Of a DNA stretch of 21,201 nt, positions 1-21,201 are shown piece after piece. The DNA comes from a virus: IMG/VR virus record IMGVR_UViG_3300021356_000202, positions 1 to 21,201 of that record; one strand, given 5' to 3'. The notes under the pieces were generated by a model. That model had not been told where the DNA came from. It worked only from the letters and a program-made list of their open reading frames with translations, and did not search any database. The position numbers were made by a program, and so were the translations under genes. The stretch's first letter is position 1. Each line of letters opens with the position of its first letter.

Positions 1-599
1 AGATCCTTATACTTTTCTTCTTTCTCGGTCAACCACCAGAGTGAGAACTGGTCCCAAGATTTGAGACTGTCCGCATACCCGTCTGGCCACCAAGTGTCAT
101 TCATCTGTCTGAATGTCAAGTCCCACCAATCATCCATGAACTCACGCACAATCGGTTTGGACATATCATATAAACATACTGCACCGCATAGTGTGAACTT
201 AGAGACACCCTCTGGGGTGTCGAAGTCACGTTCTGCATATATGTAGTCACGATCATCTGTCAAGGCAGTAAAGACCACATCATGATCTTTCATTTCATCC
301 CAAACTTTGCAGATGTCTTCGTGCTCTACTTCCATATCAGCATCGATATACATCGTTAGGTCATACGGCGATTTCGCCATACCCCATAACTTAGCGCGGT
401 AGTGATCGTCACATAAGAGAATATCGTCTGCGACATCTCGACCACGGTCATCAAGGAATCGTTCCTCGGTCACTAAACAGATCTTGCATTCCTCTTCTGG
501 TTCATAGTAGTCCCTGATAGACTCTGCAAGATTGATTGCGTACAAATAAAAGTTGCGTTTCTTTGACGCAACGATAATAAACCCTTTACTCTTTTCCAT
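1..599 (-). CDS. Glycosyltransferase-like protein, 3' end beyond the window
   Basis: Only the first 199 residues are visible; the frame is open to the left edge. The start ATG at 599-597 gives an N-terminus MEKSKGFIIVASKKRN, and residues 8-45 alternate hydrophobic strands and helix as in a GT-A Rossmann-like fold. The sequence YIDADMEVEHED puts a D-x-D metal and nucleotide-sugar motif at residues 86-88, preceded by an aromatic and hydrophobic strand as in GT8 and related nucleotide-diphospho-sugar transferases. The region after residue 155 is rich in Trp and Asp (DDWWD, DTWWPDGY). The gene overlaps the end of the upstream 153-aa gene by 14 bp, so the two are probably translated together. The role inferred is transfer of a sugar to a virion or host-surface target. 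The acceptor and sugar cannot be read. The GT-A assignment is fairly safe; the exact family is not. Confidence 0.72.
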   Translation of the reverse strand, partial: MEKSKGFIIVASKKRNFYLYAINLAESIRDYYEPEEECKICLVTEERFLDDRGRDVADDILLCDDHYRAKLWGMAKSPYDLTMYIDADMEVEHEDICKVWDEMKDHDVVFTALTDDRDYIYAERDFDTPEGVSKFTLCGAVCLYDMSKPIVREFMDDWWDLTFRQMNDTWWPDGYADSLKSWDQFSLWWLTEKEEKYKD

Positions 600-1047
600 C
601 TGTCTCGGCCTCTAGTTGGTCTTGTAGAATCATGATCGAGTACATATCCACTTCGATCTTAGATTTAGCACGACGCAATTTTGCCTTCAACTTGCGGTTC
701 TTAGAGTTCTTGATCTCCTCAACTTCAAACGCTTCTAGTTTGTAGTTAAACAGTTTCTCAAGTTTCCTTGCCTTTTGATGTTCTAACTCACGTTGCTTCT
801 CTTCTTCCGCCTCCGCAGCTTTGCGTTCGACTCGATCGGTAGTTTCCTTATCGATCAACTCTTCACCAAGCGCATCCACGACTTCCGCAAACAACTCGTT
901 AGGATTTCCATCACGATCATGTCTTGCCAACAACATCTGTTGACGGGTGACACGACCAACATCATCTTCCATTTCTAGGATACAGTTTAGTTCTTTCTTC
1001 TCTTCTGTTTCCCAGAATGCGTTGTCCATCCAACGTCTATAACTCAT
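586..1047 (-). CDS. Charged coiled-coil protein of unknown function (153 aa)
   Basis: The start ATG at 1047 is preceded by GGAG about nine bases upstream. The N-terminus is MSYRRWMDNAFWETEEKKEL. From about residue 66 to 150 the protein is dominated by Glu, Lys, Arg and Ala with spaced Leu, Val and Ile, which predicts long charged helices and probably a coiled coil. There is no signal peptide, membrane segment or recognisable catalytic motif. It lies downstream of the giant fibre gene, past a terminator, and overlaps the following glycosyltransferase by 14 bp. I recognise no named family. Its position suggests a helper for fibre assembly or for the glycosyltransferase, but nothing in the sequence shows this. 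No T4-type late promoter is visible in the 114-bp gap before it, so it may depend on readthrough or on a promoter I cannot recognise. Confidence 0.8.
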   Translation of the reverse strand: MSYRRWMDNAFWETEEKKELNCILEMEDDVGRVTRQQMLLARHDRDGNPNELFAEVVDALGEELIDKETTDRVERKAAEAEEEKQRELEHQKARKLEKLFNYKLEAFEVEEIKNSKNRKLKAKLRRAKSKIEVDMYSIMILQDQLEAETDGKE

Positions 1048-1135: not shown

Positions 1136-1155
1136 CTTCTATTATAACATAGAAG
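1136..1155. other. Small inverted repeat between the giant gene stop and its terminator
   Basis: CTTCTAT and ATAGAAG form a perfect 7-bp stem around a six-base A/T-rich loop. It sits 7 bp past the stop codon and 11 bp before the UUCG-loop terminator. It could protect the mRNA 3' end or be a weak second terminator; no function is shown. Confidence 0.45.
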
Positions 1156-1161
1156 GGTCGC

Positions 1162-4100
1162 TTATGCAACCCTTACATATAGTGTGTATACATCTGTAAC
1201 GTGTGTCTGTGTATCGGAGATGGTTTGACCGATGTAGTTACCGACGAAACTACGTGCGTAGTTTCCAGCGAACTCACGGGTGTAGTTACCACCAAAGTCA
1301 CGAGAGTAGTTACCGATGAAGTTTCCTAGGTAAGAAGAAACACGGTCACGTGTGTATGCACCTGAGTAAGCAGATGTTCTGATACGTGCGTATGCAGATA
1401 CACGGACACGAGAGTAGTTACCTACGAAGTCACGAGAGTAAGCACCAGTGTACTCACCAACGAACCCACGGTTGTAGTTACCTACAAAGTTACCTACGAA
1501 GTCACGTGCATATGCACCAGTGTACTCACCAACAAACTCACGACTGTAGTTACCTACGAAGTCGCCAGCAAAGTCGCGTGTGTACTGACCGGAGAAGTCA
1601 CGTGAGTAGTTACCTGTGAATGTACGGTTGTAAGCACCAGTGTACTCACCAACAAATCCACGAGAGTAGTCACCTACGTAGTTTCCGCCAAAGTTTCGAG
1701 CGTAAGTACCAGAGTAAGTACCAGTGTATTCACCAGCGAAGTTACGTGCATAGTTACCTACGTAATCACCAGCGAAGTTACGTGCATAGTTACCGACGTA
1801 GTTTCCACCAAATTGACGGGTGAAGTTACCGACGTAGTTTCCTGCGAACGTTCCTACGTAATCACCAACATACTCACCAGCGAACTGACGTGTGTAGTTA
1901 CCAGTGAAGGTGCGAGCGTAGTTACCTACGAAGTCACCAGCAAAGTTAGTTACACGGTCACGGGTGTATGATGATCCACGGTTGCGGACGTATGCAGATA
2001 CACGAGTACGTGCGTATGCAGAGTAACGAGTGCGCGTTGATGTGCGAGTGTACTCACCAGTAAAGTTACCAGCAAAGTCACCAGCAAATCCACGTGCATA
2101 GTTACCAACAAAATCACCTGTAAACGTTGTTGCGTAGTTTCCTACGAAGTTACCAGCGAAGTTGGTTACACGATCACGTGCGTAAGCCGAACCACGGTTA
2201 CGAGTAGATGTGCGGGTTGAATCGCGTGTGAAGTCACCAACATAGTTAGTTACACGTGTGCGAGCGTATGCGCTGTAACGAGTACGAGCGTATGCGGATG
2301 CACGGTTACGTGTGTAGTAACCAGTGAAGTTCGTTTCACGTGTGCGAGCGTAAGAGTTCGCAAAGTTCTGTGTGCGGTTACGTGTGTAAGCAGAGTTACG
2401 AGTACGAGTGTAGTTTGTTACACGAGTACGTGCATAGTTACCCACGAAGTCACCAGCAAAGTTACCAGCAAATCCACGCACGTAGTTGCCTAGGAAGTTA
2501 CCTACATAGTCGCCCACAAAGTTACGCGAATAGTTACCGACGAAGTTACCCACGAAGTCACGAGCATAGTTACCTACGAAGTTACCAGCGTAGCTCAATG
2601 TACGTGTGTAGTAACCAGTATTGGTCGATGTGCGAGTCGAAGTACGTGAGTAGTTACCAGCGAAGTCTCCTACAAAGTCACCTGTGTAGTATAGAGTCGC
2701 TGCACGATCACGTGTGTAAGTGCCTGTCGCAACGCGAGTACGTGCGTAAGCACTGTAACGTGTACGTGTCGATGTACGGGTGTAGTTACCAGTGTAGTTA
2801 CCAGCACGGGTACGTGCGTAGTTTCCAGTGTAGGTACCAGTACGATCGCGTGTGTAGATAGTAACACGAGTACGAGCGTAATCAGTAGCACGAGTTCTCT
2901 GGTAGTTTACGTTACGTGCATATCCTGTTGCACGGGTACGTTGGAACGTATTAGTAAAGTTACCTACGAAGTCGCCTACGAAGTTACCACCGAAGTTACC
3001 AGCGTAACTAGCAGTTCCCACATAATCGCCAACAAAGTTACCTATGAAGTTACCAGTAAAGTCACCAGTAAAGTTACCAGTGTAAGGAACAGTTCCCACA
3101 TAATCGCCAACAAAGTTACCAGTGTAATTAGCAGTTCCTACAAAGTTTCCTACGAACGAAGAAGTTCGAGTTATTGTATTGGCAAAGTCACCAATATAGT
3201 TTGTAGAGATAGTGCCTGGTGCTTTACTTAGTTTATATGCAGTACGGAAAGAACCGTAGTTTGCTTGAAAATTTCCTCTGTAGTATCTTGAACCACCAAT
3301 GTCCCTGTAGGTCATGTGTACACTACCAGTAAACGCGTCGATCAGGTTACCGTCACGGTAAATCGAGTGGAAACCAACACCACCTTCAGTGTTTATTTCC
3401 CAACCAGTCGTTGTTCCGAAGTAGTTACCAGCATACACCTGAGAGAAGCCTGGATCATTTGCAGTACCAACGGAGGTACGAGTCGATGAACCTGTACGAG
3501 TATAGTTACCCACAAAGTCGGTCGTGTAATCCACGTTTCGACTATAGTTTGTAGCGCGTGTGCGTTGATAGTTTACTTCACGAGTGTACGTAGCTACTGA
3601 CGAACGGGTAAAGTTATTGGTGTAATCTGTAGCGCGTGTGCGTTGATAGTTTACTTCACGAGTAGATGTACGAGTTGATGTACGAACCGATGTGCGTGTG
3701 AAGTTTGTGGTGAAAGTGTTTGTATAGTTACCTACGAAATCACCTACGTAGTAAACGGTTCCTACGTAATCACCCAAGAAGTTACCAACGTAGTTTCCTA
3801 CGAAGTTGCCTTCATAGTTGCCAGTGTACGAGAATGCACGGTTACGAGCGTAGTTTCCTACGTATGAGAATGCACGGTTACGTGTGTAGTTACCTACGTA
3901 ATCACCAGCAAATGCACGAGCGTAGTTACCGACGTAGTATAGGTTACGTGTGTAGTTACCTGTGTAGGTTACACCTACCGCTGAAGCACGAGTGTAGTTT
4001 GTTACGCGGGTACGACCATAGTTACCTACGAAGTCACCTGCGTAGTATAGAGTACGTGCGTAAGAGAACGTAGATGGTCTGGTACGAGTAGATGTACGCG

Positions 4101-6237
4101 TAAAGTCACCAACATAGTTAGTAACACGAGTACGAGCGTAAGCTGAACCACGAGTTCTTGTATAGTTTGTCGCACGTGTACGAGCATATGCTGAGTAACG
4201 TGTGCGAGTCGATGTACGAGTTGAAGTACGAGCGTAGTCACCTACGAAGTTTCCAACGAAGTCACCGACGAAACCACGAGCGTAGTTTCCGGTGAAGTCA
4301 CCAAGGAAGTTACGGCTGTAGTTACCGACAAAGTTTCCAAGGAAGTTACGACCGTAGTTACCTACGAATGCACGAGAGTAGTTGCCTACGAATGCACGAG
4401 CGTAGTTACCAACGAAGTTTCCAACGAAGTCACGAGCGTAGTTTCCGATAAAGTTACCACCGTAGTTTCCTACGAAGGTACGAGCGTAGTTTCCTACGAA
4501 GTTACCCGCAAAGTTAGTGACGCGATCACGAGCAAAGTCACCAACATAGTTAGTGATGCGTGTTCTTGCGTAAGCACTGTAACGTGTGCGAGTTGATGTG
4601 CGTGTTGATACGCGAGAGTAGTTACCTACGAAGTCTCCAGCAAAACCACGAGAGTAGTTACCCACGAAGTTACGTGAATAGTTACCTTGGAAGCTGCGAG
4701 AGTAGTTTCCGATGAAGTTACCTGCGAAACCTGTTACACGGTTACGCGTATATGTTGATACACGAGCACGAGAGAATACGCCAGTATAGTAACCAGTGTA
4801 AGTCCCTGCGAAGTTTTCTTCACGGACGCGGGTAAAGTCAGTTGCGTAAGCAGATGTACGAGTACGCGTGTATGTTCCAGCGTAAGCAGATGTACGAGTA
4901 CGTGTGTATGTTCCAGCGTAAGCAGAAACACGTAGACGGGAGTAAGTCCCCGCATACGTTCCGGTATATGTAGATACACGAGTACGAGTATAGTCTGCTG
5001 AGTACGTTGATACACGGTTACGTGAGTAAGTACCTGCATAAGATGATACACGTCCACGAGTGTACGATGAAGTACGTGTGCGTGAGAATGTACCAGTGAA
5101 TGGTGTGATACGGTTACGAGTGTAAACCGAAACACGAGCACGGTTATATGTTCCCGCGAAGTATCCAGTAAACGCTGTTAGGCGAGTGCGTGAATACGAT
5201 GAAACGCGAGTACGTGCATATGTACCTGAGTACGATGATGGGCGAGTACGAGAGTAGTTCCCTTCAAAGTTACGTGAGTAGTTACCTACGAAGTCACGTG
5301 AATATGTACCTGTGTAGTCTCCTACAAAAGTACGAGCAAATGTTGAAACACTGTCACGCGTGTATGAAGATACACGAGTACGAGTGTATGCAGAAACACG
5401 TGCACGGTTGTATGAAGATACGCGAGTTCTTGCGTATGCAACGTCAACTGGTGTACGACGTGTGTTCTGTGCAGTACCTACAGACACCCATGTGCCTGGG
5501 ACTGTTGGTGCGCCTTGTGCTGTTGAACGTAGTTGGTATGAACCAATCGCTCCGGAAGTAGCACGAAGTGACTTGATGCGTTGACCTAGTGTATACTTGA
5601 TCTGTGCATCTGACATTTCTTTTAGACCGTTGAATCCAGTACCATCGTAGCTTGTCGCTACTGGGCGAACTGGGGCAACCGACGCCATAGAAGTACGCAT
5701 CCAAATGTGATAGTTTGTTACTACGGTACCTGCACCGCCGTTACCGTGAGTGTCAGAAAATACAGAGTCAATAAACTTTGTATAGTCTGCACTTGGTTGA
5801 GTAGCGGACAGTTTGAAAGTACCGATATAGTCGTTCTGTACTAAGTTAGACAGAACACGACCTGCTAAGTTGTCCAAGTCCCCGTCTACCATTTCGTAGA
5901 AGCCTGGGTTTGGAGCAACGTCGTAATAACCTACTGGACGGACAAAGTCTGCACCGGATTCGTCTGCTGGGCCACTCACTTGCTTCAGAGTGGTGGTCAC
6001 TGAGGTACCCGTGATCTGTGAAGCAGGGTGGGTACCAGATATTTCATTGTAGTAAGAATCTACAAACGAACCGATTGATTGGCCATCAGTTAAACTGATA
6101 TTACCAACGTCGTTAGATGCGGCCGCAACTAACGCTTCTCCCACTGCATAGGATAGATACAACTCATCCGATGGAGTGAATTCCTGTAGGTCACCATTAG
6201 CATTTTGAATTTTTAGTGGTATACTAGATGCTGACAC
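1162..6237 (-). CDS. Giant tetrapeptide-repeat virion protein, probable fibre (1,691 aa)
   Basis: The start is GTG at 6237: it is preceded by GAGAG, and an in-frame TAA lies seven codons upstream, so no earlier start is available. Residues 1 to about 265 are ordinary mixed sequence, plausibly a virion-attachment domain. Residues about 265-925 and 1010-1668 are tandem tetrapeptides of the form [G/R/S/T]-x-[Y/F/R]-[V/A/S/T], for example GNYS, RNFV, GDFV, SAYA, RTRV and RTST. About 330 units are present. Residues about 925-1010 are a non-repeat island containing Trp, His, Met and Lys, which the repeats entirely lack. The last 24 residues end in YTLYVRVA. There is no signal peptide or membrane segment. 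The gene has its own late promoter and terminator and follows the fibre genes and a tail-assembly chaperone gene. A structural, host-contacting fibre is the best inference. I can name no family for the repeat. Confidence 0.88.
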   Translation of the reverse strand: MSASSIPLKIQNANGDLQEFTPSDELYLSYAVGEALVAAASNDVGNISLTDGQSIGSFVDSYYNEISGTHPASQITGTSVTTTLKQVSGPADESGADFVRPVGYYDVAPNPGFYEMVDGDLDNLAGRVLSNLVQNDYIGTFKLSATQPSADYTKFIDSVFSDTHGNGGAGTVVTNYHIWMRTSMASVAPVRPVATSYDGTGFNGLKEMSDAQIKYTLGQRIKSLRATSGAIGSYQLRSTAQGAPTVPGTWVSVGTAQNTRRTPVDVAYARTRVSSYNRARVSAYTRTRVSSYTRDSVSTFARTFVGDYTGTYSRDFVGNYSRNFEGNYSRTRPSSYSGTYARTRVSSYSRTRLTAFTGYFAGTYNRARVSVYTRNRITPFTGTFSRTRTSSYTRGRVSSYAGTYSRNRVSTYSADYTRTRVSTYTGTYAGTYSRLRVSAYAGTYTRTRTSAYAGTYTRTRTSAYATDFTRVREENFAGTYTGYYTGVFSRARVSTYTRNRVTGFAGNFIGNYSRSFQGNYSRNFVGNYSRGFAGDFVGNYSRVSTRTSTRTRYSAYARTRITNYVGDFARDRVTNFAGNFVGNYARTFVGNYGGNFIGNYARDFVGNFVGNYARAFVGNYSRAFVGNYGRNFLGNFVGNYSRNFLGDFTGNYARGFVGDFVGNFVGDYARTSTRTSTRTRYSAYARTRATNYTRTRGSAYARTRVTNYVGDFTRTSTRTRPSTFSYARTLYYAGDFVGNYGRTRVTNYTRASAVGVTYTGNYTRNLYYVGNYARAFAGDYVGNYTRNRAFSYVGNYARNRAFSYTGNYEGNFVGNYVGNFLGDYVGTVYYVGDFVGNYTNTFTTNFTRTSVRTSTRTSTREVNYQRTRATDYTNNFTRSSVATYTREVNYQRTRATNYSRNVDYTTDFVGNYTRTGSSTRTSVGTANDPGFSQVYAGNYFGTTTGWEINTEGGVGFHSIYRDGNLIDAFTGSVHMTYRDIGGSRYYRGNFQANYGSFRTAYKLSKAPGTISTNYIGDFANTITRTSSFVGNFVGTANYTGNFVGDYVGTVPYTGNFTGDFTGNFIGNFVGDYVGTASYAGNFGGNFVGDFVGNFTNTFQRTRATGYARNVNYQRTRATDYARTRVTIYTRDRTGTYTGNYARTRAGNYTGNYTRTSTRTRYSAYARTRVATGTYTRDRAATLYYTGDFVGDFAGNYSRTSTRTSTNTGYYTRTLSYAGNFVGNYARDFVGNFVGNYSRNFVGDYVGNFLGNYVRGFAGNFAGDFVGNYARTRVTNYTRTRNSAYTRNRTQNFANSYARTRETNFTGYYTRNRASAYARTRYSAYARTRVTNYVGDFTRDSTRTSTRNRGSAYARDRVTNFAGNFVGNYATTFTGDFVGNYARGFAGDFAGNFTGEYTRTSTRTRYSAYARTRVSAYVRNRGSSYTRDRVTNFAGDFVGNYARTFTGNYTRQFAGEYVGDYVGTFAGNYVGNFTRQFGGNYVGNYARNFAGDYVGNYARNFAGEYTGTYSGTYARNFGGNYVGDYSRGFVGEYTGAYNRTFTGNYSRDFSGQYTRDFAGDFVGNYSREFVGEYTGAYARDFVGNFVGNYNRGFVGEYTGAYSRDFVGNYSRVRVSAYARIRTSAYSGAYTRDRVSSYLGNFIGNYSRDFGGNYTREFAGNYARSFVGNYIGQTISDTQTHVTDVYTLYVRVA
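1235..3210 (-). repeat. Tetrapeptide-repeat arm 2 (12-bp units)
   Basis: This encodes residues about 1010-1668 of the giant protein. It is a near-continuous run of 12-bp units, with the aromatic residue mostly at the third position of each unit. The first part is rich in GNFV/GDYV units. The middle holds RTST/RTRY/SAYA cassettes. The last 500 bp are dominated by an octad of the type RDFVGEYT/GAYx. Because units are 12 bp, gain or loss of a unit keeps the reading frame. Boundaries are approximate. Confidence 0.85.
3465..5445 (-). repeat. Tetrapeptide-repeat arm 1 (12-bp units)
   Basis: This encodes residues about 265-925. The N-terminal quarter is made mainly of RTRV-SSYT type octads. The middle is GNFV-GNYS-RAFV type. 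The distal end contains short phase shifts (around LYYV and the EVNYQRTRATDY segments) where the aromatic residue moves within the unit before the register recovers. Boundaries are approximate. Confidence 0.85.
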
Positions 6238-6361: not shown

Positions 6362-6841
6362 TTACGAAAGAGTAGGCCAATCCACGTCAGTGATACAACT
6401 TGGATCACCTAAATTATCTATAAGATCTCTCAACGCTTGACGGTACTGAGACCAAGACTGTTTCTTTTCTTCTGAGATAGGAGCGTCCGGTAACTGTGTC
6501 CAATCCGATTGGGCCAATAGGATATTCCTCTGTTTTCTGATATCGTTGAGTAATAACTCTCTATCCCAATTCCAGCCGGGTATATCCTTATCCCAATAAG
6601 CATGGGAGTTGGGTCTTACCCCAACATGAACCCATTCATCTGATACTAAATCATACCAGTGTTGTTGTGAAAGATATGACATATCCCCACAACCCTCTGG
6701 CATATTTTCTGTCGTGATCCAGATAGCTTTGTTTTTTCCGTCGTCTACAATGGTACCGTGAGCTGGAGTTCCGTGTTGAGGGAGAACGGATCTTGCGACT
6801 CTCCCACTCTCCATATTAACATAAGCTACATATTTTAACAT
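6362..6841 (-). CDS. Tail-assembly chaperone, Phage_tail_APC type (159 aa)
   Basis: The C-terminal half carries the signature of the phage tail assembly chaperone family (Pfam Phage_tail_APC): residues about 93-157 include LLNDIRKQRNILLAQSDWTQ, then PDAPISEEKKQSWSQYRQAL and a terminal DVDWPTL. Residues 1-90 form a separate N-terminal portion with several Trp and His. Proteins of this type are usually encoded next to tail fibre genes and assist fibre folding or assembly; they are generally not major virion parts. The start ATG at 6841 has AAGGAAA a few bases upstream and lies 12 bp after the 641-aa gene. It is the last gene of the operon, followed by the UUCG-loop terminator. The likely client is the 641-aa protein or the giant repeat protein downstream. 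The family call is strong; the client is inference. Confidence 0.85.
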   Translation of the reverse strand: MLKYVAYVNMESGRVARSVLPQHGTPAHGTIVDDGKNKAIWITTENMPEGCGDMSYLSQQHWYDLVSDEWVHVGVRPNSHAYWDKDIPGWNWDRELLLNDIRKQRNILLAQSDWTQLPDAPISEEKKQSWSQYRQALRDLIDNLGDPSCITDVDWPTLS

Positions 6842-6853
6842 TTTTAATTTCCT

Positions 6854-8779
6854 TTAGTTTGCTATACCGCCAGGGAACGTGTCATCGTTACCCGTGTCGA
6901 TACCACCATTACCTGTGTCGTCTTCACTGTTCTGAGATCGGTTAACTGTAACATTCCCCCCAGGCTTAGAGACCCAACTTCCACCGTTCCTTCTGACCTG
7001 AGGCGTTAAAGATTCTGAATTGCCTGGAGCTGGTACAGAATTTAAGTTGAAGAATTGAGTGGTCGATGTAACCTGAGTGGCATTTAACACAACATCATTA
7101 CTATTCGTTGTATCCAAAATTCTCATCTCTTCACCTACAGTCATTCCTGAATATTCTAAAGTCAAATCGCCCACATCCGCTGGCAACTGAATGATACCAT
7201 TTGTTGCATTCTGAATACTTGGGTTACTCGTAGGAGTTGTTCCTTGTAACGGTCCCGCAGAGGTATCTCTATATATGTTAAATACTTTCGCATCCACATA
7301 AGTTCTGCCATTATATATCTGCAACGTATACTGCCTGCTGTTTCCTACGGAAGGTAGTTGACTATCTACTTGAACCGTAGTGTTAACGTCCTGTGGCAAA
7401 GTAAATGATTTAATAGTAGTAGAACCATATCGTATTCTCGCATTGACCGAACCCGATCCCTGAGATGCATAATAGAATTGAACCGCAGCACTAGTGTCGT
7501 CACTATAAATGTTGTATTGACTTCCTGTGGTTGTTCCTACCAGATTAGTACCACTGTCGTCATCGTATAAAGTAAAGTCGACAGACGCCAATAAATCACC
7601 AGAACCCAGAGTTATTCCTGTTCTTAGTTCTACGGTAAAGTTTTCTCCCTGCCATCCGGTCTCTGCCACATAATCGTTTTTTGCAGTAAAGGTAAAAGAA
7701 CTAGTTGCTGCCTGAAAATATTTCCCAGTAGCAGTCAAGAATTCTCCAGTTCCCACTTCACCCCCACCATCTTCTGGAGACTTACGAATAACCTTGAAGT
7801 TATAGTTTCCAGATTCACTCACAACAGCATTGACTGTAATTGAACCGTTTCCTCCAACACCTTCCTGCATGAAGGTTGCGCCGTTTGCGAATTCTAAACT
7901 AGCGCTGATACCACCACTTCCATCGTCACCACTATTACTTGTGTCCCCAGACGATGCGGATCCTCCGGAGGATCCGCCAGTGTGTAGGGTTGCGGAAAAC
8001 ATAGCGAAACCCGGCCTATAGAAAATTACATCTTGTCCACCATCATCAAACTGGAACTCACCATCGTAAATGTAAGCACCAGTATTGTTAATCGATATAG
8101 CCCTTAACCAAAATATAGCTAGATCCGGATCATGTATCGTTTGCAATAATGAAGTCCATTCGATGTTGGTATAACTTCCATGAACACCAAATGGGAAATA
8201 TTCTGTACTAGACTGTGGTGCCCAAGAAGCTGTTGTGTTGGTAACCGCATTTATATGAAATGTTTTGTTGGTTATCACCGCTCTCGAATCAAACGCAGTA
8301 TCTCCATTCGACGTTAATATCTGAAGTCCGTAATCGTCGTTTCTGTTTTGTCCATCTGCAAAGATTTTACCCACGTCTCTAACAACGAAGTAATCCATCT
8401 CCACTTCCCAACCACGATAAACTAGAGTCTGCGTACCTTGAATGGTGTTTGTGAAAACTGTTCTAAAACTTCCACCCCAAAACTGAACCACATTAGTGAC
8501 CGGATGTATGTTGCAGAAGTACCATTCTGGAGCATAGAAATAAGCAAAAGCTTGCCCCGTCGTTCCCTGATACGATTCTATGTGAGTGTCATAACTACCC
8601 CCAACAGGTTGTGGGTTTTTAACAAACAATAGATCGGTAGGACCCAGAGGACTGTCTAATGTAAACGAGTGTCCGGTGCCAGATTCCACCACTTGTAAAT
8701 TGATAAGGTTAAGGTTTGTGTCAGTGACAAGAAAACTTCCGCCACCGTCTGTTCCTTCTACCTTTAATCCATAAGTCAT
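6854..8779 (-). CDS. Fibre protein with a DUF6453-like N-terminus and Gly/Ser linker (641 aa)
   Basis: Residues 1 to about 60 (MTYGLKVEGTDGGGSFLV) match the opening of the adjacent 100-aa protein and resemble DUF6453-type phage proteins, which start M-x-[YH]-G-[LI]-x-V. The globular part extends to about residue 265 and contains many aromatics (YFYAPEWYFCN, FQFDDGGQDVIFYRPGF). A flexible linker rich in Gly, Ser and Asp follows at about 267-292. Two or more beta-rich, Ig-like segments fill residues about 293-615. The tail is again Gly/Asp/Asn-rich and ends GGIAN. There is no enzyme motif, signal peptide or membrane segment. The start ATG overlaps the previous stop in a TAATG. Its place between fibre genes and a tail-assembly chaperone suggests a tail fibre or tip adhesin. 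The fold assignments come from composition only. Confidence 0.75.
   Translation of the reverse strand: MTYGLKVEGTDGGGSFLVTDTNLNLINLQVVESGTGHSFTLDSPLGPTDLLFVKNPQPVGGSYDTHIESYQGTTGQAFAYFYAPEWYFCNIHPVTNVVQFWGGSFRTVFTNTIQGTQTLVYRGWEVEMDYFVVRDVGKIFADGQNRNDDYGLQILTSNGDTAFDSRAVITNKTFHINAVTNTTASWAPQSSTEYFPFGVHGSYTNIEWTSLLQTIHDPDLAIFWLRAISINNTGAYIYDGEFQFDDGGQDVIFYRPGFAMFSATLHTGGSSGGSASSGDTSNSGDDGSGGISASLEFANGATFMQEGVGGNGSITVNAVVSESGNYNFKVIRKSPEDGGGEVGTGEFLTATGKYFQAATSSFTFTAKNDYVAETGWQGENFTVELRTGITLGSGDLLASVDFTLYDDDSGTNLVGTTTGSQYNIYSDDTSAAVQFYYASQGSGSVNARIRYGSTTIKSFTLPQDVNTTVQVDSQLPSVGNSRQYTLQIYNGRTYVDAKVFNIYRDTSAGPLQGTTPTSNPSIQNATNGIIQLPADVGDLTLEYSGMTVGEEMRILDTTNSNDVVLNATQVTSTTQFFNLNSVPAPGNSESLTPQVRRNGGSWVSKPGGNVTVNRSQNSEDDTGNGGIDTGNDDTFPGGIAN
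7956..7977. repeat. Perfect 22-bp palindrome inside the Gly/Ser linker codons
   Basis: The 22 bases read identically on both strands and contain two BamHI sites (GGATCC) around a central TCCGGA. In frame they encode part of the GGSSGGSA linker. Alternating Gly and Ser codons can produce this by chance; no regulatory role is evident. Confidence 0.6.
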
Positions 8780-18932: not shown

Positions 18933-19811
18933 CTACGAGTCTCTCAGAAAATTATTTAACCACGTCTCTTTCTGTAGGTGATTCATCAATAACTCTTTGT
19001 AGATAACAGGCAGTTCATATGGACTACTTCTGTGGTGACTGACATGACGCAAAGCCTCTTCTCTTAGAGGTCCAAGGTATTCGTCATAGTCGTGAACCTT
19101 CTGGGCACTCCCCTCTGTCGTCCTGTCGATACAATAGAGGTCGCTGGACATTGACAAGAAGTAACAGAGATTTCCTTTCTGGTGTTCTCCCAAAAGTTTG
19201 TAGGTGTATGCGTGATCTTCACCATTACCTATATCTGTGTTGAATCTATATTGCGCAGACTTTCGGCTTTGTAGAATGATGAAGTCTACAGAGACTGGTC
19301 TCTCATCTATAAACAGATGACTGACCTGCGGTCCCATGCTATCGGTGGGTGCGCACATAGAAGTTCCCCACACACTGGCATGGTATTTATCGTTCACCCA
19401 CCATCGGTGACCGGACTGCAATGCGTAGTCACAGATACAGTCGCACGGTATCACACCCAAGACATCTATGCATGGGAAGTGTTTGATGTGGTTGTACAGT
19501 GATTGGAGATAGGAAGGATATAAGAAGTCGTCTCCGTCAATCTGAGAAACATAGTCCGCATCGCTCTGTAAGAAAACTTCGAGACACGCGTTCTTGCCCA
19601 TTCCCGGCTTACCATTACTCTCTGTGTTGACGATACGAAATGGTTGGTCTATCTCAAGTACCTGTTCGTAATATCCTTCATGAATAGTATTGACCACAAT
19701 CACCACTTCCCATTCGATGGGAGATATTTTCACAACGTTTTGTACAGATCTGATTAGTCTCTCTAACTTTGGAATGTCATTAGAGGTCAGCAAGGTTGTC
19801 AATAGTTTCAT
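18933..19811 (-). CDS. Glycosyltransferase, family-2-like GT-A fold (292 aa)
   Basis: The N-terminus (MKLLTTLLTSNDIPKLERLI) is the nucleotide-binding strand-helix of a GT-A enzyme. EWEVVIVVNT forms the second strand, and NGKPGMGKN at residues 66-74 matches the loop that contacts the nucleotide-sugar. The metal-binding D-x-D-type motif is QIDGDDFLYPSYL, with Asp at 92, 94 and 95. HRWWVNDKYHASVWG and GNGEDHAYTYKLL follow, the latter in the place of the catalytic E-D-x-x segment of family 2. It is soluble, with no membrane helix. The start ATG has GGAG upstream and lies 2 bp after the oxygenase stop. It probably transfers a sugar to a phage or host polymer; the acceptor is unknown, and the nearby collagen-like fibre is one candidate. 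A DNA-modifying role is possible but less supported by location. Confidence 0.85.
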   Translation of the reverse strand: MKLLTTLLTSNDIPKLERLIRSVQNVVKISPIEWEVVIVVNTIHEGYYEQVLEIDQPFRIVNTESNGKPGMGKNACLEVFLQSDADYVSQIDGDDFLYPSYLQSLYNHIKHFPCIDVLGVIPCDCICDYALQSGHRWWVNDKYHASVWGTSMCAPTDSMGPQVSHLFIDERPVSVDFIILQSRKSAQYRFNTDIGNGEDHAYTYKLLGEHQKGNLCYFLSMSSDLYCIDRTTEGSAQKVHDYDEYLGPLREEALRHVSHHRSSPYELPVIYKELLMNHLQKETWLNNFLRDS

Positions 19812-19813
19812 AA

Positions 19814-20368
19814 TTACTCCGCATCAAAAAAGAATGTCTGGAACAGTCGACCGTTGTATTGGTCAGTTCCAAAGCCAGGCACTACACTGCGATGGTAATA
19901 CATCGAGTCATAGATGACCATTCGATTATAAATGTTCTTTGCCTCTGCGACCATCTCCCAGTCCGACTCTAAGAACTCAAACTCGTTGAAGTCAATTGCA
20001 ACGTCTGGACCATGTCGCATAATCCCAGTGGGACGATGGCGATAGATCGCAGTACCAGAGTCTAGTGGAGCGTCGGGGGTTAAGTATATGACTGCGGCGT
20101 AAGACATCTCATCATGGTGAATCCACGTTCGAGAGTCTTGTGTTGTATACTGGAATGCGGTATTGTAATTATCAGTAGGGAAGTAGGTTATCTCTTTTCC
20201 TATGATGGATTGGAAGTGTTCGATTAGATGTTCGTGATAACCACCATCACCAGAACATGGTTGTGTTCTAAGGCCTGGGTAGTTTCCTGTAACATTAAAC
20301 TCTTGACTAAGGGCGTATTCTCTAACTGCATCTGGGTTAGAATAAAAATCTTCAATTATAGTAAACAT
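19814..20368 (-). CDS. 2OG-Fe(II) oxygenase, DUF6445/prolyl-hydroxylase-like (184 aa)
   Basis: The start chosen is ATG at 20368 (MFTIIEDFYSNPDAVREYAL), with AGG about seven bases upstream. A longer frame from a TTG at 20410 would begin inside the terminator hairpin and is rejected. The double-stranded beta-helix signature is complete. The iron ligands are H84-x-D86 in TWIHHDEMSYAAVIYL and H159 in MYYHRSVVPG. R174 in YNGRLFQTFFF would bind the 2-oxoglutarate carboxylate. The segment GTAIYRHRPTGI is typical of DUF6445-type proteins. Such enzymes hydroxylate protein side chains or small molecules using 2-oxoglutarate, Fe(II) and oxygen. It lies between a collagen-like fibre and a glycosyltransferase. 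The substrate is not determined; prolyl hydroxylation of the fibre is an inference. Confidence 0.84.
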   Translation of the reverse strand: MFTIIEDFYSNPDAVREYALSQEFNVTGNYPGLRTQPCSGDGGYHEHLIEHFQSIIGKEITYFPTDNYNTAFQYTTQDSRTWIHHDEMSYAAVIYLTPDAPLDSGTAIYRHRPTGIMRHGPDVAIDFNEFEFLESDWEMVAEAKNIYNRMVIYDSMYYHRSVVPGFGTDQYNGRLFQTFFFDAE

Positions 20369-20386
20369 TATATACCTATGGTTAAA

Positions 20387-20403
20387 CCCCCCCTTGCGGG
20401 GGG
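20387..20403 (-). terminator. GCAA-loop terminator after the collagen-like gene
   Basis: On the minus strand six C, the loop GCAA and six or seven G form a very stable all-GC stem with a GNRA tetraloop, followed by TTTAA. It begins 7 bp after the TAA at 20413-20411. The T-tract is short, so some readthrough into the oxygenase gene is likely. No T4-type promoter is visible between the two. Confidence 0.8.
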
Positions 20404-20410
20404 ATATCAA

Positions 20411-21201
20411 TTAGTTCAACTTACCGATCTTCACCCTCAAACTATTGTTGTTATCAAAAATGTCTATAGACGTTGACGAAAACTCAAGTCGTTCATTAGG
20501 TGCTGTCCCTGTATTTAGGAGGCCACTCATATCAACAAATCCTTGATTGTTAGTCAACTCTGTGAAGTTAGCGTTTCCTGTTCCGGTCACATTCTGTGTT
20601 GATCTGAATACTCGACCTGTATTGATGTGCCACCAAACGTCACCGACAAAGATCTTATCAACTGTGCGGAAAGATTTAATTCCACTGGAGGCTGTTGCGT
20701 TTACATTCGATGGGAACGTAGTCGATGTGTTGAATAATACTGCGTTACCGAATCCACCGACTGGACCCTGCTGACCTTGGACACCAGCAACACCTGTTGC
20801 GCCTTGAGGACCGTCTGGGCCTGGTTGACCTTGATTACCTTGGCGACCTGTAGGACCCTGTTGTCCCTGCGCACCAGTGCTACCCATAGGACCTGTCACA
20901 CCTTGACGACCCTGCGGACCCTGTTGTCCTTGAGCACCTGTCGCACCAGTGACACCAGTTGCACCTTGGCGACCCTGTGGACCTTGTTGTCCTTGAGCAC
21001 CTGTCGCACCAGTGCTATCCATAGGACCTGTCACACCTTGGCGACCCTGTGGACCTTGTTGTCCTTGGACACCCTGTGGTCCAACATTACCAGTTGCACC
21101 TTGACGACCCTGCGGTCCTTGTTGTCCCTGAACACCTTGAGGTCCAACATTACCAGTTGCACCCTGTCGTCCTTGAGGGCCTTGTTGTCCTTGGACACCC
21201 T
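20411..21201 (-). CDS. Collagen-like fibre protein, N-terminus beyond the window
   Basis: The frame is open to the right edge; a GTG at 21034 lies mid-repeat and is not the start. Forty-nine Gly-X-Y triplets are visible (GPQ, GQQ, GRQ, GAT, GVT and so on), followed by a C-terminal head of about 115 residues. The head starts GGFGNAVLFNTSTTFPSN, contains VGDVWWHINTGRVFRSTQNV, and ends SIDIFDNNNSLRVKIGKLN. Collagen-like triplets in phages form trimeric rods in tail fibres, and the head probably carries trimerisation or receptor binding. The repeats are organised in groups of seven triplets. One triplet has Asp for Gly. Gln and Pro dominate and Lys is absent from the repeat. The C-terminal nonapeptide is nearly identical to that of the 1,075-aa fibre. 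A terminator follows directly. Confidence 0.87.
   Translation of the reverse strand, partial: GVQGQQGPQGRQGATGNVGPQGVQGQQGPQGRQGATGNVGPQGVQGQQGPQGRQGVTGPMDSTGATGAQGQQGPQGRQGATGVTGATGAQGQQGPQGRQGVTGPMGSTGAQGQQGPTGRQGNQGQPGPDGPQGATGVAGVQGQQGPVGGFGNAVLFNTSTTFPSNVNATASSGIKSFRTVDKIFVGDVWWHINTGRVFRSTQNVTGTGNANFTELTNNQGFVDMSGLLNTGTAPNERLEFSSTSIDIFDNNNSLRVKIGKLN
20759..21201 (-). repeat. Collagen-like repeat with 63-bp super-repeat
   Basis: Within the Gly-X-Y run, blocks of seven triplets recur. The two right-hand copies (GAT GNV GPQ GVQ GQQ GPQ GRQ) are identical in protein and close in DNA. Later copies vary the first three or four triplets but keep GQQ, GPQ or GPT, and GRQ. One block has an extra triplet. 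The array continues past the right edge. Confidence 0.85.

Follow-up and report, generated by a model that had tools for sequence, protein, structure and literature searches.

The giant gene of IMG/VR record IMGVR_UViG_3300021356_000202 comes from a T4-like marine phage and likely encodes a tail fiber that takes the form of a giant antiparallel β hairpin. Its main feature, absent from a preliminary description of the same 21.2-kb record (analyzed over its whole length of 21,201 nucleotides and here called the window), is the mirror complementarity of the two halves of a tetrapeptide array: residue a of the N-terminal arm (N-arm) pairs with residue 1936 − a of the C-terminal arm (C-arm) in one unbroken register of 451 residues. 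Computation shows that the array has two arms of equal length, and it yields both the register and the pairing rule. We infer that the arms would pair within a single chain, in β conformation throughout, and that the protein would be trimeric, located on the virion, and able to bind a receptor.

The giant gene and its family

The window virus is a T4-like phage whose closest annotated relative is phage C48C1 (Kyanoviridae), in which no photosystem genes are annotated. A sequence search with the N-terminal 270 residues of the giant protein matched 33 IMG/VR loci, and a profile of the N-terminal domain matched 92; we retained 80 of these. C48C1 was the single match in a collection of 50,697 phage records, its homologue being the hypothetical protein WJE88074.1 (3,347 aa). 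The same 270 residues had no match in bacterial and archaeal genomes, and neither the giant protein nor the N-domain profile matched a family in Pfam, PHROG, PADLOC, or the PDB. The preliminary description, which could not name the repeat class, had offered a match of the repeat to a solved family as grounds for giving up its reading; none was found in Pfam, PHROG, or the PDB. Its suspicion that other marine phages carry similar repeats proved correct, as many marine phage contigs have them; the family itself counts more than 90 IMG/VR loci. We discarded a match in the Enterococcus phage Riverwalk, which amounted to three short, weak segments lying across small, unrelated genes.

Complete family members span 834 to 3,347 aa, and every one of them consists of a ≈265-aa N-terminal domain, then the repeat array, and then an end resembling YTLYVRxA (Table 1). 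In relatives, AAAGAGAG is found upstream of the giant gene. The interval 1235 to 5445, to which the protein had previously been assigned, holds for the repeats but not for the whole gene, as the N-terminal domain, central insert, and C-terminal tail belong to it as well. At L087 (9986–15350), and also at L146, the giant gene occurs in two tandem copies; those of L087 are 839 and 942 aa long, and both own an N-domain and a YTLYVR end. The DNA pattern of the repeat also turned up in L293 and L294, which correspond to the 142-kb contig JAAXIF010000028.1; this contig has been binned into a Sphingobacteriales MAG but is probably a mis-binned phage or viral contig.

Table 1. Positions of the giant gene, its parts, and its immediate neighbors in the window
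Feature	Position (nt)	Strand	Basis or remark
Giant tetrapeptide-repeat fiber gene	1162..6237	minus	GTG start, 1,691 aa; start and end conserved in complete relatives
N-terminal domain, residues 1–266	5440..6237	minus	46–99% identity in relatives
N-arm of tetrapeptides, residues 267–925	3463..5439	minus	cyclic HMM and arm comparison
Central non-repeat (apex) domain, residues 926–1022 (97 aa)	3172..3462	minus	all-β by AlphaFold2
C-arm of tetrapeptides, residues 1023–1670	1228..3171	minus	cyclic HMM and arm comparison
Conserved 21-aa C-terminal tail, residues 1671–1691, ending VTDVYTLYVRVA	1162..1227	minus	conservation in relatives
Unbroken pairing register, N-arm side, residues 268–718	4084..5436	minus	
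Unbroken pairing register, C-arm side, residues 1668–1218 (a + b = 1936)	1234..2586	minus	
Apex strand, residues 915–922, mirror partner of 1014–1021	3472..3495	minus	AlphaFold2
Apex strand, residues 1014–1021	3175..3198	minus	AlphaFold2
Terminator-like hairpin, 3′ end of giant gene	1153..1174	minus	consensus match only
Phage_tail_APC / tail fiber assembly protein, directly upstream	6362..6841	minus	family match
153-aa charged protein, first downstream cassette gene	586..1047	minus	53/53 loci
Glycosyltransferase-like gene, second in cassette	3..599	minus	53/53 loci; runs off window

The tetrapeptide array

Identity autocorrelation of the window protein, an analysis that the preliminary description had proposed, confirms that the pattern recurs every four residues (z = 12.9 at lag 4, 22.2 at lag 8, and 19.6 at lag 12), with odd lags all strongly depleted (z about −5 to −9). 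The same values uphold its exclusion of a pentapeptide repeat (lag 5, z = −8.6, against enrichment at lags 4, 8, and 12) and of collagen (lag 3, z = −6.0), and they agree with its strand-like alternation, in which positions 1 and 3 lie on the opposite face from positions 2 and 4. Using a cyclic 4-state HMM trained on the family, we assigned 1,305 residues to the repeat, in line with the earlier estimate of ≈1,300 of the 1,691. These comprise 310 complete tetrads, 137 of them distinct; the tandem tetrapeptide array is therefore real, and only the former count of about 330 units was slightly high.

The tetrad profile is [G/R/S/T]-[N/T/D/A]-[Y/F/R]-[T/A/V/S]. Lys, His, and Trp are all absent from the window repeat, and the whole protein is devoid of Cys. 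Between close relatives, dN/dS is 0.20 to 0.35 in the repeats versus 0.07 to 0.32 in the N-domain; these substitution ratios mark the repeat as coding sequence on which purifying selection acts. In the comparison of the window with L010, the N-domain is nearly identical (dS 0.025) and the repeats are far more diverged (dS 0.28), a contrast that suggests recombination or faster turnover of the array. We also considered whether the repeat serves to supply N-glycosylation sequons (GNYS/GNYT) and rejected the idea, because Asn at position 2 has no link to Ser/Thr at position 4: the latter occurs in 35 of the 106 window tetrads with Asn at position 2 and in 75 of the 204 without it, and family-wide the two are anti-associated.

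Equal arms around a central insert

The single non-repeat segment of the window protein splits its array into 659 and 646 repeat residues. Comparable pairs of values are found for L010 (622/623), L023 (679/681), L025 (979/982), L051 (798/797), L065 (545/544), and L087 (193/197), so that the arms stay equal across the family despite a five-fold range in arm length. Even in C48C1, whose C-arm holds six further inserted stretches, 1,032 and 1,059 repeat residues flank the central insert. Of 41 distinct members having exactly one interruption of at least 25 aa, 37 have a left-arm fraction of about 0.46 to 0.52; the four exceptions (L081, L082, L083, and L088) are interrupted instead by another, large domain, which lies ≈380 residues away from the base at the C-terminal end.

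Large C-arm domains ≈380 residues from the base occur in several relatives. Examples of large C-arm domains lie at residues 1230–1630 in L078, where the domain bears a weak likeness to PA14/GLEYA domains, at protein positions 1807–2127 in L007, and at 1121–1347 in L040. The C48C1 segment KTRHRSYLYYSTDTST... is present in duplicate.

Degenerate tetrad arrays also appear in another fiber gene, found in L184 (nt 1478 onward) and, on the minus strand, in L242, L216, and L179; in L184 and L242 this gene starts like the window ORF at 6854–8779. The L242 version has equal arms, 393–629 and 737–975, around a central insert that by eye resembles the apex domain, and with the learned pairing scores no one register clearly stands out in it. 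Its equal arms and apex-like insert indicate that the array-plus-apex module may be portable and may also sit inside a different fiber gene.

A single mirror register between the arms

Mutual information (MI) between the arms, computed across ≈30 divergent members, has a sharp maximum of 0.44 at a single antiparallel offset, compared with a mean of 0.096. Secondary maxima flank it at ±2, and odd offsets score lower, as expected for same-face neighbors in an antiparallel sheet. The window protein taken alone, with no training, gives an MI of 0.776 at a residue sum of 1936, compared with 0.118 ± 0.043 over 100 other registers. When pairing scores learned from other clades were applied to the window arms, residues 268–718 aligned gap-free with residues 1668–1218, with a total score of 176 versus 18.4 ± 3.2 for tetrad shuffles and 5 in the parallel orientation. 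Pairing scores are weak near the apex (residues 719–898), where the path slips slightly in register before reaching 898/1038.

Relatives behave in the same manner. A single register spans 847 residues in L025 and 676 in L051, and the pairing path of L040, L078, and L081 is broken just once, at the large C-arm domain. For C48C1, an ungapped register scan fails because of the C-arm inserts, and we used a gapped pairing path, which jumps over the inserts and then resumes. Of the 52 distinct members, 50 have their fewest Arg clashes, among the offsets scanned, at the predicted register (±1, depending on tail length), with a clash rate there of 1.6% versus about 17%. The two exceptions are C48C1, with its inserts, and L085, a short divergent member of 909 aa that lacks the expected register. 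Direct co-substitution between close relatives is no more than suggestive, with an odds ratio of 7.4, versus 3.8 for a shifted control, from few changes.

A period of four and strict alternation would also suit a β-solenoid, whose successive coils, formed by a single chain, stack on one another with a fixed residue lag, as the preliminary description had suggested. Such a fold predicts fixed-lag coupling, but in the window MI at fixed lags is 0.398 at lag 4 and at most 0.223 elsewhere, far below the 0.776 of the mirror register. Nor would a solenoid explain why the arms are equal or why pairing picks up again beyond inserts present in one arm only; we consider it highly improbable.

Complementarity on the inward face

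The register signal is concentrated at tetrad positions 1 and 3 (z = 9.9 and 15.8), which would face inward, whereas positions 2 and 4 carry little register information (z = 1.7 and 3.1). Among the 113 pairs of position 3 with position 3 in the window, we counted Tyr:Tyr 42, Arg:Phe 25, Phe:Arg 16, and Phe:Tyr 10, the remainder being Ser:Phe 6, Phe:Phe 6, Tyr:Phe 5, Phe:Ser 2, and Tyr:Ser 1. Neither Arg:Arg nor Arg:Tyr occurs (0 of 113; shuffled mean 21.8, minimum 12). Position 1 faces position 1 mostly as Arg:Gly (34), Gly:Arg (23), Ser:Arg (17), and Arg:Ser (10), along with Gly:Gly (10), Thr:Gly (8), and Gly:Thr (6), and again Arg:Arg is missing (0 of 113; shuffled mean 15.9, minimum 6). Over both positions, the window register has no Arg:Arg or Arg:Tyr clash in 226 pairs, compared with about 32 at other registers. 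In effect, RxRxSxYx octads face GxYxRxFx octads, and pairing across the family follows the same rule.

These pairs bear on a further suggestion of the preliminary description, that of a self-associating low-complexity segment. A disordered, condensate-forming protein with Tyr and Arg stickers, like FUS-like proteins or spider silk, would share the composition of the repeat (Tyr, Arg, Gly, Ser, Asn, and Thr) and its net charge of about +108 in the window, and Arg–Tyr stickers are documented in silk (PMC12772222). It would not, however, predict a unique register, let alone one that continues over 451 residues without a break, free of Arg:Arg clashes and avoiding Arg:Tyr pairs, nor does it fit the depletion of odd lags and the conservation of residue positions across clades. 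We accordingly give this explanation very little weight.

Tandem DNA repeats do occur, and the mirror pattern could in principle be a by-product of DNA repeat dynamics or of shared ancestry. Tandem duplication and DNA inversion, however, do not yield a reversed complementary protein sequence, and the signal can be seen in a single protein with no training, comes mainly from the inward face, and skips inserted domains; we regard this origin as the least credible of those considered, with a negligible chance of being correct.

Predicted structure

We examined AlphaFold2 models of the window protein (residues 660–1276) and of the 850-aa homologue L069, reading strand pairing from secondary structure and residue sums alone. 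The window model contains one confident region, at ≈927–1008, which is all β with pLDDT of about 75 to 92. Two predicted strands, 915–922 and 1014–1021, flank the apex domain, and their residue sums are exactly 1936; because AlphaFold2 was not given the register, this is an independent match to the value found from the base half of the protein. In L069, the N-domain is predicted as a confident α/β fold (pLDDT mostly >90), and strands 262–270 and 824–832 sum to 1094, the value predicted from covariation. The last residues of L069 reach pLDDT values up to 95, and the model suggests that the C-terminal tail docks at the N-domain. The repeats themselves have very low confidence (pLDDT about 25 to 35), so the register argument does not rest on structure prediction. 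Fold comparison of both models with Foldseek, including the apex domain against the PDB, matched no known fold.

Genomic context and downstream cassette

The giant gene sits in a baseplate/fiber module and adjoins a fiber-assembly gene. Further upstream lie Gp8-like and DUF4815 baseplate genes, a phrog_9729 fiber gene, and two more ORFs, and synteny is similar in relatives, C48C1 included.

The same three genes lie downstream of the giant gene in all 53 loci with enough sequence, the cassette occupying 3–1047 in the window and 14917–16806 in L015. The 153-aa protein has no accepted family match in Pfam or PHROG. The glycosyltransferase-like protein is 245 aa long in L015, and 11 of 20 members give a weak, below-cutoff match to Glycos_transf_2. 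The third protein has dioxygenase-like motifs by eye, with weak or no Pfam support. Within the phage collection, each cassette gene is found only in C48C1. Conversely, a tetrad array lies upstream in 76 of the 80 IMG/VR places that carry the cassette glycosyltransferase; of the other four, two are near contig ends and two have other fiber genes in between; L155 is an example, its giant gene being located farther upstream of the glycosyltransferase. It is reasonable to suppose that the trio may modify or assemble the fiber.

Elsewhere in the window, a collagen-like Gly-x-y fiber fragment (20411–21199, minus strand) stands beside a DUF6445/phrog_1644 gene that is oxygenase-like by eye (19814–20410, minus strand), with a family-2 glycosyltransferase in the same stretch (18933–19811, minus strand). 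The genes at 18933–20410 are possibly a modification set for the collagen-like fiber.

Proposed architecture

We propose that from an N-terminal base domain the chain would run outward as one long β strand, the N-arm, and form a small all-β domain at the far tip. The C-arm would return as a second strand, antiparallel to and in register with the N-arm, and the C-terminal tail would dock back at the base domain, placing both ends at the base. Positions 1 and 3 of each tetrad would face inward and obey the complementarity rule. Mutual recognition of RxRxSxYx and GxYxRxFx octapeptides would select one register and let hundreds of residues zip correctly; the rule would thereby solve a folding problem, as a long repetitive hairpin could otherwise zip at many offsets. 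Fiber length would be set by repeat number, at ≈210 nm per window arm if fully extended (0.33 nm per residue), and the very long fiber of the preliminary description is probably right. The apex domain at the tip is the likely receptor-binding (host-binding) site, and C-arm inserts would be side decorations bulging from the fiber.

The arms might instead pair between different chains, as a trimeric six-stranded needle or an antiparallel dimer. Covariation cannot tell intrachain from interchain contacts, and phage fibers are usually trimers. The T4 gp37 needle is six-stranded and antiparallel (PMC9659904). Equal arms, a central domain, and the docking of the C-terminal tail predicted in a monomer model are a better fit to one hairpin per chain, and we consider interchain pairing unlikely; it would alter the assembly only and leave the out-and-back architecture unchanged. 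In the single-chain hairpin that we prefer, chains probably assemble as a trimer.

This apparently widespread family of marine phage proteins, nameless in Pfam, PHROGs, and the PDB, has an organizing principle readable from sequence: an amino acid pairing rule that fixes the register of a hairpin over hundreds of residues. If the proposal is true, the zipping resembles that of a nucleic acid hairpin, and the family would allow side-chain pairing in antiparallel sheets to be tested directly and would offer a template for programmable protein fibers. It would also account for phage fibers whose length depends on repeat number and point to the tip as the likely site of host recognition. The invariant downstream trio makes fiber modification or assisted assembly directly testable.

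Comparison with known systems

The closest counterpart is WJE88074.1 of C48C1, a true homologue that shares the N-domain, array, C-tail, neighbors, and downstream cassette but is longer, with six extra C-arm inserts. Structural proteins of the cyanophage S-RIM2 share a four-residue G-N-x-T motif (GNVT/GNLT tetrads); in these, the third position is aliphatic rather than aromatic or Arg, the stretch is short, and an Mtd_N domain lies at the N terminus. Pentapeptide-repeat and collagen-like proteins are likewise short-period and phage-borne, but their periods of five and three are not those found here. In spider dragline silk, Arg and Tyr occur at the β-sheet interfaces of the fiber (PMC12772222). 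The silk precursor, however, is disordered and has no pairing register, and the phage protein avoids Arg opposite Tyr, using Arg:Phe and Tyr:Tyr.

In T4 gp37, the N- and C-terminal ends lie near the collar, and the arms are tens of residues long, as against up to about 1,000 in the giant-protein family. The tip of this long tail fiber is described as a six-stranded antiparallel β needle (Bartual et al. 2010, as cited in PMC9659904 and PMC7291167). The likeness lies in a long antiparallel β needle on a tail fiber with a receptor-binding domain at its tip, the needle being proposed and the domain probable in our case; the mirror register, equal arms, and AlphaFold2 strand sums all point indirectly to out-and-back antiparallel strands whose termini both lie at the base and whose far end carries a domain. 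The window protein differs in having no homology to gp37 detectable by Pfam, PHROG, PDB, or Foldseek comparison, and in its array of ≈310 tetrapeptides with a complementarity rule. With zero His in the repeats, it also has no HxH metal sites, unlike gp37. We found no description of the repeat class or the pairing rule in the open-access papers searched. Given a gp37-like topology but neither homology nor metal motifs, we see an even chance that the family is a protein-architecture class of its own, in which complementary halves zip one chain into a unique antiparallel register, length changes through matched changes in both arms, inserts in one arm are tolerated, and the module perhaps also serves in a different fiber gene.
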